Assembly (NCBI GenBank): GCA_026225555.1
Contig: JAMFSY010000151.1
Coordinates: 62,001 to 126,000, forward strand
Direction of reading: 5' to 3'
Length of the DNA stretch: 64,000 bases
Origin: Methylacidiphilales bacterium
Lineage (GTDB): Bacteria; Verrucomicrobiota; Verrucomicrobiia; Methylacidiphilales; UBA1321
Notes under the pieces: generated by a model
The model's database searches: none
What the model saw: the letters and a program-made list of their open reading frames with translations, nothing else
What the model was told of the DNA's origin: nothing
In this document: piece by piece, positions 2,166-55,552 of the stretch
How the letters are laid out: the number at the start of each line of letters is the position of its first letter
Numbering within the stretch: the first letter of the stretch is position 1
Program-made: the position numbers and the translations under genes

Positions 2166-3137
2166 GTGAACGATTTAGGCTCTTCACAACCGGCAAGCCA
2201 TCTCATGGACTCTTCTCTCCTGCAACTTTTCACGGCCCAAGAATTACTCCAGCGGCTCAGCGAGAAATCGAGCACGGGCGCGCTCCACGCCTTCACGCCC
2301 AAGGAATCGGCCAACATCTTCTTCAAGGAAGGCAAGATCATCGGAGCGGCCAAGGGTCTCGTCGAAGGCGAGGAAGTGGTGAAGCAGATCATGGAGTGGA
2401 AGGAAGCCCGCTTTGTCTGGCAACAGGACTGCCCGCTCGTTTCCCTCACGAAACCGATTGAAATCGAGTTCGAGGACTTCCTGATCAAGGTCAAGGCCGC
2501 GCCCAAGCTGGAGATCGGCGGCAAACTCGTCGGATCGGAAACATCCTCGATTCCGCCCAAGCCCGTTCTCGACGAATCTCCTGCGGAACTTCGGAGCACG
2601 GGCAAAGTCTTCGCCAAGGGAGCGCCCCTCCCGCCCAAATCGGCGGGAGTCGAGCCCGCGCCCATTTTCATCACCATCCCCTCCAAGGCGGCGACCACGG
2701 GCCGCATCGAGCCAAAAACTTCGAGCGGTCCAACAGCCGCCACGGAAGTGCCCGCGCTCACGGCCACAAAGAATATCAACTCGACCACGCCCGAAGGGCG
2801 GGTCAGCCGGGAGGAAGCGCTGTTGCGGAAGTTCCCCCTCTCCCTGGCTTCGGCCGGTGATGGACCGCAAAAGCGGCTGAAAATCACCCGGCTTAGCAGC
2901 CTCATCGGACGCAACCCGGCCTGTGATTTCACGATCGAGAATGGTTCGATTTCCCGCCAGCACTGCCTCCTGCAAATCACCGACCGGGGACTGCACGTCA
3001 AGGACCTCGGCACGACGAATGGCACGAAGGTGAACGGGATTCCGCTCACCGAGGGTTACGTCAACGTGGGCGACAAGCTCATGGTCGGCAACCTGGCCTT
3101 CCTGGTGGAGAAGGACGAGATCGACGTCGAGGCCTAG
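2166..3137 (+). CDS. DUF4388/PATAN-like plus C-terminal FHA domain protein
   Basis: N-terminal LLQLFTAQELLQRLSEKSSTGALHAFTPKESANIFFKEGKIIGAAKGLVEGEEV; C-terminal RLSSLIGRNPACDFTIENGSISRQHCLLQITDRGLHVKDLGTTNGTKVNG (FHA). Confidence 0.85.
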   Translation: MNDLGSSQPASHLMDSSLLQLFTAQELLQRLSEKSSTGALHAFTPKESANIFFKEGKIIGAAKGLVEGEEVVKQIMEWKEARFVWQQDCPLVSLTKPIEIEFEDFLIKVKAAPKLEIGGKLVGSETSSIPPKPVLDESPAELRSTGKVFAKGAPLPPKSAGVEPAPIFITIPSKAATTGRIEPKTSSGPTAATEVPALTATKNINSTTPEGRVSREEALLRKFPLSLASAGDGPQKRLKITRLSSLIGRNPACDFTIENGSISRQHCLLQITDRGLHVKDLGTTNGTKVNGIPLTEGYVNVGDKLMVGNLAFLVEKDEIDVEA

Positions 3138-3283
3138 AGCGTTTTTTAATTAGATCGTCGCTCTTTTTCTCCGTCATCCTGAGCTTGTCGAAGGATCAGT
3201 TTTGCCTCGGCAAAGACAACTGAACTGATCCTTCGACAAGCTCAGGATGACAGACTTTAAAGCGACTGGACGTCCTTCCAACC
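3135..3283. repeat. Nested palindromic element, family 1 copy 1
   Basis: Perfect 29-bp arms GTCATCCTGAGCTTGTCGAAGGATCAGTT at 3173-3201 and its complement at 3223-3251; diverged outer arms; left end contains the TAG stop of the FHA gene. Confidence 0.9.
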
Positions 3284-38238: not shown

Positions 38239-40725
38239 ATGAGCGAACCCGATTTCTCTCTCCCTGAGCGACCACCGCCCCGGCGCCGAAGGATCGCCGC
38301 GACCGCACTCCGGATCTCCCGTTTCGCCTGCCTTTCGGCCCTCTTTCTCAGTTTCACGTCGCTTCTTGGCTGGGTGCTTCATAACAACACCCTGAAGGCA
38401 TTTGACCCGGCGCATGTCAGTATCAAGACCAATGACGCCGTTTGCTGCGCTCTCGCCGCCTTGGCCCTCCTCCTCAGCTACCTCAGCTACCCGCATCGCT
38501 GGCATGCCTACCTTCGCTGGATCGTGGCCGGGATCATTGCCCTTATCGCCGTTGCCACGCTGGTCGAGTATGCCGCCCATGTCTCCCTGGGAATCGATGA
38601 ACTCATTTTCAGCGACACTCCTCCCGGGCCTGGCACGTTTTATCCGGGGCGGATGGGCCCCAATGTCGCCGTCGTTCTGCTCTGTTTCGCTGCCGCCCTG
38701 CCTCTTCTTTCCCGTGGCAAGGCCGGGGCGGCGTTTGCACAGACCCTGGGCATCACCGGCCTTTTCATCGCGGTTCTGGCCGCCTTCAGTTACGTCTTCA
38801 GCGGGGGAATCTTCCTCTCGTTCTACCACTTTACCCGGATGTCGTTTCCCGACATCGCCTGCTTCATCCTGCTCGGGATCGCCATCCTGGGAATTCGTCC
38901 CAACCGCGGTGTGGTCGCCATGTTTCTGGCCGACAATCCCGGCGGCCTGGTCGCACGACGTCTGGTTGGACCGGTCCTTCTGGGGCCGGTGGTCCTGGGC
39001 ATGCTCGCCTTTCGCGGACTGGCTCTCGGTTATTATAACGAGGCCTTCACCGGGCTTCTCGTCATCTTCTCCAACCTCGCGGTCGGCTGCCTCATCACGC
39101 TCCGCAGCATCACCTCGCTCAATCAGATCGATTCCGAACGCAGGCGCTTGAACGAAGCCCAGGTCCACGCCGAGATCCGGGAACAGGGCACGCTGGAAGC
39201 CTCGCGATTGAAATCGGAATTTGTCGCCAATGTCAGCCACGAGCTGCGCACTCCTATGAATGGCGTCCTGGGCATGACGAACCTCCTGCTCGGCTCCCCT
39301 CTCACTCCGGAGCAGCGCGAACAGGTCGAGACCATTCGCCAGAGCGGCGATGCGCTCCTCACTTTGGTCAACGAGATCCTCGACTTCTCCAAGATCGAAG
39401 CGGGCAAGGTGGAGCTCGAGCACAAACCACTCCATCTCGGCGCCTGCGTGGACGAGGTCGTGGCCCTGGTGGCGCCAATGGGCCGCCGCAGTCGGATCAA
39501 CCTGATCGCCTTCATCGATCCGAGTCTGCCCACGACCTTCCTGGGCGATACCGCCCGCCTGCGGCAGATCCTCATCAACCTCATGGGCAACGCCATCAAG
39601 TTCACCAGCGAGGGCGAGGTGATCCTCGAAGTGAACGGCGTCGTGCGGGAGGATAACCGCCACGAGATCAATTTCGTGGTCAGCGATACAGGCATCGGGA
39701 TTTCCCCCAACGCGCTGCCCCTGCTCTTCCAACCTTTTCAACAGGTTGACGCCTCGGCCCGGCGCAAGCACGGCGGCACCGGCCTGGGCCTGACCATCAG
39801 CAAGCGACTTGCGGAACTTATGGGTGGCGAAATCCACGTCTCGAGCATTCTGTCCATCGGCTCGACCTTCCGATTCAGCGTCCCGCTTCAATCCGTTCCC
39901 GGCACCCCGCCGGATGAGCAACTGCCCCCTTCCACCCGCGTCGTATTGATCGCCCGGGGCGGCAAATATCCGAGTCTGCTCCAGCGCCAGTTGGAGGCAT
40001 GGGGAGCTGATGTCCTCGCCGTACCCAACCCGCTCAGCATGCTCCATCCCCAGGATGCGCGGTTTGCCGCCGTCCTCATGGATCGCGACGAGGAAACGAT
40101 TCCGATCATCCGCCAGATGCAGGCCGATCCGATGTGGAAGGACGTGCCCAAGGTTCTGCTCGATTTCGGCGATCCCCTGCTCGAAGAGGACAAGCTCCTC
40201 TTTGCCAAGCGGATGCCCAAGCCTTTCAAGCGGAACCATCTTCATGCGTTTCTGCTCGAACGCACCGGCACGCAGATGGTGCATTCGCTCTCGCGGATCA
40301 CCTCCCCGCTGCACCAGATACCGCTCGCCCAGAAGCTTCCGTTGCGCATCCTCCTCGCCGAGGACAATTATATCAATCAGAAGGTCGCCGTCGCCCTGCT
40401 CGGCCGCTTCGGTTATCGGGCGGATGTGGCCGGCAACGGAGCCGAGGCGCTCGAGAGCGTGGTCCGCCAACCCTATGACCTCGTTTTCATGGATATCCAG
40501 ATGCCGGAAATGGACGGCATCGAATCGGCCCATGCCATGCGCCGCAAGCTCAAGGAACGCTGTCCCAAGCTCGTGGCCCTGACCGCAAACGCCTTCCCCG
40601 GCGCCCGTGAACAATATCTCGCCGAGGGTTTCGACGATTACCTGAGCAAACCGCTCGTCGCCGATGTCCTGCGCCAGGTGATCACCCGCATGGGTGAAGC
40701 CTCCCGGCCCGTGGCGGTGAGTTAG
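38239..40725 (+). CDS. Membrane hybrid histidine kinase (HisKA-HATPase-degenerate REC-REC)
   Basis: N-terminal TM helices; [65 protein letters not shown]...[16 protein letters not shown]. Confidence 0.93.
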
Positions 40726-40884
40726 ACCGCTTTCCAATTAAATGGTCGCATCAAAAATCAGTCATCCTGAGCCTGTCGAAGGATCAGTTTCGCCTCAGTA
40801 AAAGCCAAGAGGCAACCCACACGTGTGTGCAGCAAGCTCAGGAGGACTGACTTTAGAGCCACTATCTAAATGGAAATCGCTCTA
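40723..40884. repeat. Nested palindromic element, family 1 copy 2
   Basis: Outer arms TTAGACCGCTTTCCAATTAAATGGTCGC... and complement of CCTTAGAGCGATTTCCATTTAGATAGTGGC...; core GTCATCCTGAGCCTGTCGAAGGATCAGTTT; CACACGTGTG module at 40818-40827 in the right arm. Confidence 0.88.
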
Positions 40885-42903
40885 AGGAATGGTCTGGGGC
40901 TCTTCCGTTTCGGACTGCGGCGTCAACGGATTGGTGCCCGGCACTGAAGGGGGAAATCCCTGCTGGTCCAGGATGGCGCGAACTTCGTGCGCGGAGGCGG
41001 CGGCTCCCTCGCTTCCATGCGGACACTGCGATGCGATGAGGTAGGCCTGCTCCGCCTTTTGCAGCAACCCGCGCTGCCAAAAATGATTCCCCAGCGCGCT
41101 CCAGAACTGGCCGTCATAAGGCTGGGCCGTCACCGCCACCTGGTAGCAGAAGAACGCCTCGGAATAACGGCGCATCGCGTCAAACGTCAGCCCCCGTCGC
41201 GCCTGAATGGTGTCATCGAGGGGATTCGCCTTCCACGCCTTGGCGTACGCCTCGAGCGCCCGCTGGCCTTCGGAGACTCGCTCTCCAATCTCCTTTTCCT
41301 TCAACGCCCGCACCCGATAAAGATCACCCAGCAGCACCATCGCCTGCGCGTTGCCGGGGTCAATCGTCAGCGCCTCGTCCAACGCCTGGATTGATTCCAC
41401 CGACGAGGCCGTTTCCGCAGTCGCAAACGTGTGCTCGTAAAGAATATCGCTCACCGCCGTTCGCCCCAGTTCAGCGGCATCAAGCAGCGCAAAGACCAGT
41501 AATCCCCAGCCTAACCAACGGCCCAGCGGTGCCAGCGGGAGGGTGCTCCAGTGACGCGGAATTTCCTCCCGCGGAAGGCGGCGCAGCCCGAGTCCGGCCA
41601 AGGCAAACAACACCATCGCATTGGCGGGGATGTGCAGGTTGAAATCGAAAAGGGAATGGATCAACAAGGCACACCAGGCCGCCAGGGCCGTGGCCACGAC
41701 CACTCGATCGCCCCAGCGGAAATCCGCTCGCACCCGCTGAAACAGCGCAAGGGTGACCGCCCAGACAAAGAACATCGCGATGGCAAAACCGACCAGGCCG
41801 TAATCGCACAGGCAGTTCAGGTAATCGTCATGGGTGAGCTCCGCCCGGTAGGCCATCAAGGGGCCTTGGTAGCGTGGATGGACGAAAATAAAAGTCGCCG
41901 GGCCCGTCCCGAAAGCGGGGTAATCGTGCGCGATGTGCAGCGCATCCCGCGCGAGTTGAACGCGGAAATAATTCTGAACCGTCCCGTCGTGTACCGCGTC
42001 CGCTATCTCCGCCACCCGGCTCTGCACCGTGGGCGAGTCCTTGTAAATCGTGGTGACCGCGCCAGACAATAGAACCAGACCGATCACGAGGACCCACCAT
42101 CTCAGTGTCCCGTACCGCAACGCAAAGAAGGTTAGCGCGCCGAAACAGCCCACCAGCGCGAGCCAACCTCCGCGCGAATAGGAATAAAAAATCGCGACCA
42201 GGATGACCGCCGCGAGATAGCAGCAGACAATGCGCACCGGCCATCCCAGTTTCGAAAAGCACCCGATCGCGAGCATGGCCCCCAAGGCCATGACGAGCAG
42301 CGCGGCATAATGATCCGGACAGCCATAGGTGCCCACCCAGCGCGGCGCATAGTGCAGTTGCAAGCGCTCCGTCGGGCCGAAGGGAAACCAGAGCGATTCC
42401 GGATGGTTCACGTCCGAATGGAGACTGAGGTAGTAACCAAAGCCGGTCTCGGCCGCGCCCAACACCGCCAGCACGATCACCAGCGCCAAGCCATATTCAC
42501 GGCGTACGAGACCGTAGCGGCAGGTGAAAAAGAGGATCGCGTAGCCAATGACGTTCAGCACTTCCACCCGCGAGAAATATTCCGTGGGCGACGTCTGCCA
42601 GCGGATCAGCGCGTAGACCACGAAAAGAACGACCGAGAGATCAATTGCATCCACATGCCGAAAGGCTCCGGCACCGGGAATCGCCAGCAGCCGGACCGCC
42701 TGGATCATGAGCAGCACGGCGATGACGCCGAGCAGGGGAAGTTCGTACCAAAGCCGCGCCGCACCCAGCACGGACGGCCCCGCGATCAAAATGACGGCGA
42801 GGAGAATCGTCGTGACGAGGCTGGCCAGACTGCCCTGGCCGGATGAAGTCCTCTCGCTGGGCTGATAATGAGGGCGGAAAGGAACAGTCGTCGTAGGCCT
42901 CAT
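40882..42903 (-). CDS. O-antigen ligase/polymerase-like membrane protein with C-terminal TPRs
   Basis: Many TM helices; YSYSRGGWLALVGCFGALTFFALRYG and ELTHDDYLNCLCDYGLVGFAIAMFF typical of the Wzy/WaaL family; C-terminal TPR. Confidence 0.85.
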   Translation of the reverse strand: MRPTTTVPFRPHYQPSERTSSGQGSLASLVTTILLAVILIAGPSVLGAARLWYELPLLGVIAVLLMIQAVRLLAIPGAGAFRHVDAIDLSVVLFVVYALIRWQTSPTEYFSRVEVLNVIGYAILFFTCRYGLVRREYGLALVIVLAVLGAAETGFGYYLSLHSDVNHPESLWFPFGPTERLQLHYAPRWVGTYGCPDHYAALLVMALGAMLAIGCFSKLGWPVRIVCCYLAAVILVAIFYSYSRGGWLALVGCFGALTFFALRYGTLRWWVLVIGLVLLSGAVTTIYKDSPTVQSRVAEIADAVHDGTVQNYFRVQLARDALHIAHDYPAFGTGPATFIFVHPRYQGPLMAYRAELTHDDYLNCLCDYGLVGFAIAMFFVWAVTLALFQRVRADFRWGDRVVVATALAAWCALLIHSLFDFNLHIPANAMVLFALAGLGLRRLPREEIPRHWSTLPLAPLGRWLGWGLLVFALLDAAELGRTAVSDILYEHTFATAETASSVESIQALDEALTIDPGNAQAMVLLGDLYRVRALKEKEIGERVSEGQRALEAYAKAWKANPLDDTIQARRGLTFDAMRRYSEAFFCYQVAVTAQPYDGQFWSALGNHFWQRGLLQKAEQAYLIASQCPHGSEGAAASAHEVRAILDQQGFPPSVPGTNPLTPQSETEEPQTIP

Positions 42904-45920: not shown

Positions 45921-46077
45921 GCTTGGGAGCTTTCTAAAAAAGGCGGTCATCCTGAGCTTGTCGCACACACGTGTGGCAGGATCAGTTCAGATGCCTTGCC
46001 GAGGCAGAACTGATCCTTCGACAAGCTCAGGATGACCAGCTTTTTGGAGAGTGAGCCTTTTTTAGCAAGCTCCTAGG
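45921..46077. repeat. Nested palindromic element, family 1 copy 3
   Basis: Outer arms GCTTGGGAGCTTTCTAAAAAAGG (45921-45943) / CCTTTTTTAGCAAGCTCCTAGG (46056-46077); core 45946-46036; CACACGTGTG module at 45966-45975 in the left arm. Confidence 0.9.
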
Positions 46078-54949: not shown

Positions 54950-55456
54950 ATGAGAAGGTATTTTCCACCGCTCGCCCTTCTCGCCATTAGTTACGTCCTC
55001 TTTTTCGCTTACGTTTATTCCTCGTATGACAGCCTGCCATCCAAAGTGGTGAGTCACTTCGACATACTGGGCCGTCCCAACGGTTGGATGAGCCGTTCCC
55101 AAGTCATCACATTCACCTTGGGATTGGGAATCTTCCTCCCCGCAATTATCGTAGGGACGATGGCGGGCGCAGGCTCTATCCCAGTCAGTTTTGTGAATCT
55201 TCCCCATCGCGAATACTGGCTCGCACCCGAGCGACGCCTAGCCACAACGGCGGTGATGCTAAAATTTGGACTTTGGTATGCCATTCTGAACGTGCTTTTT
55301 GTCACAGGCCTGCATGCCCTGATCGTGCAGGCGAATACGCGGCCCGGCGATCCGAGCTTGAATGGAGCTGGAATGATCGTCCTTCTCGGCAGTTTTATTC
55401 TTGGGACAGCCATTTGGGCCATCCTGCTCCGACGGTGCTTTGCGCGGAAATCTTAG
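54950..55456 (+). CDS. DUF1648-type membrane protein
   Basis: DSLPSKVVSHFDILGRPNGWMSRSQ (DUF1648-like) plus TM helices. Confidence 0.75.
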   Translation: MRRYFPPLALLAISYVLFFAYVYSSYDSLPSKVVSHFDILGRPNGWMSRSQVITFTLGLGIFLPAIIVGTMAGAGSIPVSFVNLPHREYWLAPERRLATTAVMLKFGLWYAILNVLFVTGLHALIVQANTRPGDPSLNGAGMIVLLGSFILGTAIWAILLRRCFARKS

Positions 55457-55543
55457 ACCATTTCCCAATCTAAACGGCCGCGTCAAAATTGCCGTCAGGA
55501 TGACCGAAGTTTTTGAAAGTGAGCCTTTTTAGCAATCTCCTGG
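55453..55543. repeat. Nested palindromic element, family 1 copy 4 (core deleted, chimeric arms)
   Basis: Left arm TTAGACCATTTCCCAATCTAAACGGCCGCGTC resembles the left arm of copy 2; right arm GGATGACCGAAGTTTTTGAAAGTGAGCCTTTTTAGCAATCTCCTGG resembles the right arm of copy 3. Confidence 0.75.
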
Positions 55544-55552
55544 ACGAAAAAC

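Follow-up and report, generated by a model that had tools for sequence, protein, structure and literature searches.

At positions 40723-40884 of the window, the 64,000-nucleotide stretch of DNA analysed here, a hairpin-forming palindromic element lies between two convergent genes, coding for a histidine kinase (HK) and an O-antigen-ligase-like protein, and both genes end within it. The question raised by this locus is whether the element created the two stops, or whether it entered stops that already existed and left the proteins as they were. It was addressed with the copies of the element in the genome from which the window derives (G000, a 4.09 Mb draft in 180 contigs, 94% complete) and with the corresponding loci of relatives.

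The element and the genes that end in it

The element is flanked by TA dinucleotides, and on either side the TA plus the first base of the element reads TAG. The left junction (40717-40730) has the sequence ...GTG AGT TAG ACCGC... and the right junction ...CGCTC TAA GG.... An earlier sequence-only reading had placed the TAG stops of both convergent genes inside the element termini; its coordinates are exact, and both reading frames were confirmed. The features of the locus and the other copies in the window are as follows.

38239-40725, plus strand: hybrid sensor histidine kinase/response regulator, 828 aa; its stop, TAG at 40723-40725, is the element end
40723-40724, no strand: left copy of the TA target-site duplication, which with the next base forms the HK stop
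40725-40751, plus strand: left outer inverted end, type A (GACCGCTTTCCAATTAAATGGTCGC...)
40758-40785, plus strand: left CGTC-type REP arm of the inner dimer (CAGTCATCCTGAGCCTGTCGAAGGATCA; motif description from PMC3733652)
40819-40849, minus strand: right REP-dimer arm, which has diverged and carries a CACACGTGTG replacement common to many copies
40856-40882, minus strand: right outer inverted end, type A (reverse complement GAGCGATTTCCATTTAGATAGTGGCTC)
40883-40884, no strand: right copy of the TA target-site duplication, part of the ligase stop on the minus strand
40882-42903, minus strand: O-antigen-ligase/IctB-like protein with a TPR-like C-terminal part, 673 aa (frame 42903-40882); its stop, TAG at 40884-40882, is the element end
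3135-3266, plus strand: further copy with a type A left end, whose TAG ends the FHA-domain gene 2166-3137; right end degenerate
45924-46075, plus strand: further copy with type B ends, whose right TA is the stop of a short minus-strand gene (46405-46073)
55454-55547, plus strand: shrunken copy, left end type A, right end type B, core almost gone; the weakly called gene 54950-55456 ends at its TAG

All four window copies thus coincide with a stop (at 3135, 40723/40884, 46075 and 55454), the genes at 46075 and 55454 being short and weakly scored.

The element is built in two layers. Outer inverted ends that start with G surround an inner palindrome whose two arms are (C)GTCATCCTGAGCTTGTCGAAGGATCA and the complementary sequence; this palindrome is similar to REP dimers of the CGTC class. 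In that class, arms begin with CGTC and have an 8-9 bp stem starting with AT and a loop of 4-5 nt. The core arm, (C)GTC-ATCCTGAG-CTTGT-CGAAGGAT-CA, agrees with this in its AT stem start and 5-nt loop, but its stem contains two G/A mismatches. The outer ends have the forms GAGCG...CGCTC or GGAGCTTGCTG and fall into type A (TA followed by GAGCGATTTCCAGTTAAATAGTCGC, or GACCG variants) and type B (TA followed by GGAGCTTGCTGAAAAAGGC). In the analysed stretches of G000 there are 265 arms, 110 pairs and 155 core copies, at least one end being recognisable in 114 of the copies; the 66 copies with both ends have them inverted and measure 138-193 bp, and no transposase gene lies inside the end-bounded intervals. 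As in CGTC REP dimers, the copies are numerous, the arms form inverted pairs, and the flanking genes are mainly convergent or unidirectional (in-in 17, in-out 15, out-out two). Among these 66, the end combinations are BB in 33, AA in 18 and mixed in 15, and the mixed copies suggest recombination between subfamilies. Type B ends are also present in the relatives G004 and G006, type A ends occur in numbers only in G000, and the sister species G005 and G007 carry a naked core, devoid of the outer layer. Searching Rfam with the element gave only sub-threshold matches, and a literature search on the core sequence found no paper describing it.

Two further observations concern the interior. A CACACACGTGTGG palindromic replacement in one core arm is common to distant copies (40817-40832 and 45962-45976 in the window, and many other loci). 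The same outer ends also surround a longer interior, containing a GTAG-type palindrome (GGTAGCCGCCGCACGCCGTGCGGCGG), at four loci, C30:60, C35:3051-3324, C101:46 and C16:7576 (L104, L107, L105 and L116, respectively), so that interiors seem to be exchangeable.

Target site and the stops before insertion

The TA is kept at 131 of 180 ends. Empty sites were reconstructed for the 34 copies with both TA intact, and they read NTAN: TTAG in 13, CTAG in eight, TTAA in six, CTAA in three and other sequences in four, so that 30 of 34 conform to YTAR. At either end, the base next to the TA on the outside is in most cases a pyrimidine; left flanks are typically YTAG and right flanks CTAR, which means that the TA alone is duplicated (2 bp) and not the four bases. 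This bears on the proposal that the element is IS5-like rather than IS630-like, since IS5 duplicates YTAR (PMC10359306) and the copies flanked by CTAG are compatible with either a 4-bp or a 2-bp duplication; the TTAA, TTAG and CTAA sites, however, give YTAG on the left and CTAR on the right and not identical tetramers, which makes an IS5-like origin very improbable. A 4-bp duplication was rejected because the left and right flank tetramers differ.

The pyrimidine preference is not confined to stops. A first census, based on the best match to a regular expression, found a pyrimidine before the TA at 60 of 67 non-stop ends, against an intergenic background of 53% (p = 2.5e-10). This census was slightly incomplete and left out some copies, that at 40723-40884 among them; in the redone census, from which the later counts are taken, the pyrimidine precedes the TA at 62 of 69 ends away from stops, compared with 53% for intergenic TA. 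The relatives G004 and G006 together have it at 27 of 28 TA ends. Because the preference persists away from stops, it is attributed to the target choice of the insertion process and not to a by-product of stop codons.

The sequence-only reading held that insertion would create the stops; on this view the element inserts inside coding sequences in the TAG frame and trims the proteins. At 40723-40884, removal of the element together with one TA joins the flanks into GTGAGTTAAGGAATGG, in which each gene has a TAA stop and ends where it does now, HK at aa 828 and the ligase at aa 673. When the same operation was applied to all testable stop-coincident ends, an in-frame TAA or TAG was restored in 26 of 27, leaving a single case of stop creation. 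In that exception, at C120:10403 (L167, C120:8400-12500), a DUF1501-family protein has been shortened from 466 to 444 codons with loss of the C-terminal residues YFRDPDFNLIEVSNYLPATETAR; once the flanks are joined, TAT stands in place of a stop, and the site, ATAC, is not YTAR.

Orthologues point the same way, as those free of the element end at or near the same place with stops of their own. In eight relatives the ligase has its C-terminus at this position or close to it, with a conserved ...T-x-P tail and its own TAA, TGA or TAG, and in seven of these eight the element is missing from the 3' end of the gene. HK and ligase also lie tail to tail in G004 and G005, which belong to the same genus and lack the element here (an overlap of ~31 nt in G004, a gap of ~18 nt in G005), and in both of them HK ends near the same residue. 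Elsewhere, proteins that end at the element are complete at their C-terminus, with family profiles covered to the end or nearly so (ProS, MqnC, UvrA, NadA, LptG and an FAA hydrolase); for prolyl-tRNA synthetase (ProS) the coverage is 475/475. With essential proteins of this kind at full length, and with the C120 gene as its one clear case, the creation of new stops is refuted as a general rule and is hardly credible as an explanation of this locus. The earlier interpretation is therefore mostly wrong. It had also predicted that insertion in either orientation would give a clean stop; TAG is indeed presented inward at both ends, but the prediction is too broad, as the terminal TAG is read in only one frame of three.

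The ligase gene of G002 has, immediately after its TAG, a repeat that contains the core but has different outer ends (L045, G002:C38, about 3529), which suggests a separate insertion at the stop of the same gene.

What is proposed instead, and is very probably correct, is that the element is a miniature, non-autonomous, TA-targeting mobile element of about 140-195 bp that inserts in YTAR and rebuilds TAG at the stop that it enters. Its ends, the TA duplication, the YTAR preference, the empty-site stops and the orthologue C-termini are direct observations; its mobility is suggested by the multiple copies, their ends and the target duplications. Insertion would take place at the TA within YTAR, with duplication of that TA, probably through an IS630-like cut-and-paste transposase acting in trans. 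On both strands, YTAR holds a TAA or TAG stop in one of the frames, and, as the element has a terminal G at both ends, its insertion into a stop always rebuilds TAG for the gene that runs into it, from either side. In the present case the target would have been TTAA, in which two overlapping convergent genes had their TAA stops in common; both proteins would remain unchanged, and a hairpin of ~160 bp would now lie between the genes.

Stop coincidence and a possible terminator role

A genome-wide excess of overlap between stops and element ends, which the sequence-only reading had proposed as a check, does exist. Gene calls were obtained with an iterated hexamer gene caller and not from standard annotation; a simple codon score confused sense and antisense frames. 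A gene's 3' end is faced by 124 element ends, and half of them (62/124) carry the stop of that gene exactly at the element TA. Of the genes that reach the element, 62 stop in the TAG frame and five read past it otherwise, compared with one third for random frames (p = 3e-24). Of the 97 copies that keep an intact TA end, 60 sit on a stop, and in G004 and G006 the gene ends stopping at the TA are 7 of 12. Stops on both sides are rare (2 of the 34 copies of G000 with both TA intact); the arrangement of the window locus has a parallel in G004, where two convergent genes, of 324 and 686 codons, both take their stops from the copy C42:38691-38844 (L207).

How far this excess reflects an attraction to stops depends on the comparison. 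Measured in the first census only, stop and intergenic sites stand at 58:33 for the element and 94:467 for available YTAR sites (OR 8.7, p = 2e-19). The excess at stops is moderate when the reference is YTAR sites up to 50 nt after stops (OR 2.7, p = 0.0014) and weak when it is those up to 30 nt after stops (OR 1.8, p = 0.08). Most of the stop excess is thus a matter of position, for which the target motif and the removal of harmful insertions are sufficient, and a special attraction to stops is not needed. Copies in coding DNA would accordingly be expected to be lost through selection.

It could also be argued that the element sits at stops only because selection has kept it between convergent genes as a domesticated terminator acting in both directions, and that its target motif did not bring it there. 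The full element folds into a strong hairpin (-59 kcal/mol, z -5.5; the copy at 3135 reaches -69 kcal/mol, z -9.0), 83 of 104 copies have TTTT no more than 22 nt from the hairpin on one side or both (40 of them on both), as against 15 of 104 control windows, and ends that point inward to a gene exceed those that point outward, 124 versus 52. A terminator, however, has no need to start exactly at a stop codon, the pyrimidine preference is also seen at ends away from stops, and a consensus scan detected no terminator inside the 40723-40884 copy. Selection for termination as the cause of the stop coincidence is therefore unlikely, and insertion into YTAR is retained as the explanation. The hairpin with its T-runs might terminate transcription from both genes, and a role as bidirectional terminator between convergent genes is plausible on these sequence features, with about an even chance of being correct.

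Relation to known elements and significance

An autonomous partner was sought by searches with PF13358, PF01797 and PF01609 and in end-bounded intervals of 230-3500 bp, with no match. DDE_3 (PF13358) is absent from the 94% complete draft of G000, and none of the five DDE_3 genes in sister species of the genus has the ends of the element. The sole Y1 transposase found in G000, at C101:44265, is flanked by unrelated inverted repeats and not by the element, unlike the REP-associated Y1 transposase of a GTAG REP/RAYT system, which has the repeat on its flanks. At locus L182 on contig C101 (620-1970), an IS200-type Y1 transposase adjoins the frameshifted remnant of a DDE transposase, neither having the element's ends. 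IS630 duplicates TA and prefers CTAG (PMC2170065, with reference to Tenzen and Ohtsubo 1991), and the element shares both properties, but no IS630-like transposase with these ends was found. As no autonomous IS with matching ends was identified in drafts that are incomplete, the element is not filed as a member of IS630.

The closest precedents are of several kinds. In pneumococcus, 36 genes take their stop codon from a BOX element, and comparison with orthologues gave no strong evidence of truncation (PMC3049150); the pattern and the conclusion on stops are the same here, although BOX is modular (boxA/B/C), belongs to Streptococcus and is unrelated in sequence. In GTAG REPs, the termini frequently serve as TAG stops for the ORFs beside them (Di Nocera et al. 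2013, PMC3733652); CGTC REP arms form dimers that lie between convergent genes, and larger palindromes enclose some REP dimers (PMC3733652). The present element differs in that its TAG is supplied by the outer ends, which are flanked by TA and enclose a CGTC-like dimer, instead of by a GTAG tag; its host, too, is different, being a genus of Verrucomicrobiota. Miniature elements that duplicate TA are common, and those of the RUP and ERIC type are alike in their inverted ends, TA duplication, stable hairpin and lack of coding capacity, and RUP has been attributed to an IS630 transposase (PMC2229807, PMC2759123); they differ from this element, which has two exchangeable end types, a strong YTAR preference and no partner transposase found. 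Given these precedents, the element represents a new family of an already known kind.

What is added here is the explicit link between the YTAR target, the terminal G and the regeneration of stops on two strands, which was not found stated in the literature examined, itself partially covered. It is doubtful that the machinery arose, or was retained, as a system for targeting stop codons, in which YTAR recognition and a terminal G at both ends would serve to turn overlapping convergent genes into separated, terminator-insulated ones. The link does offer a simple, testable reason why BOX and REPs often supply stops, namely that a palindromic TA target is a stop on both strands and a harmless place to land. 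It also cautions that a stop inside a repeat should not be taken as a sign of truncation, and a poorly studied phylum gains a repeat family.
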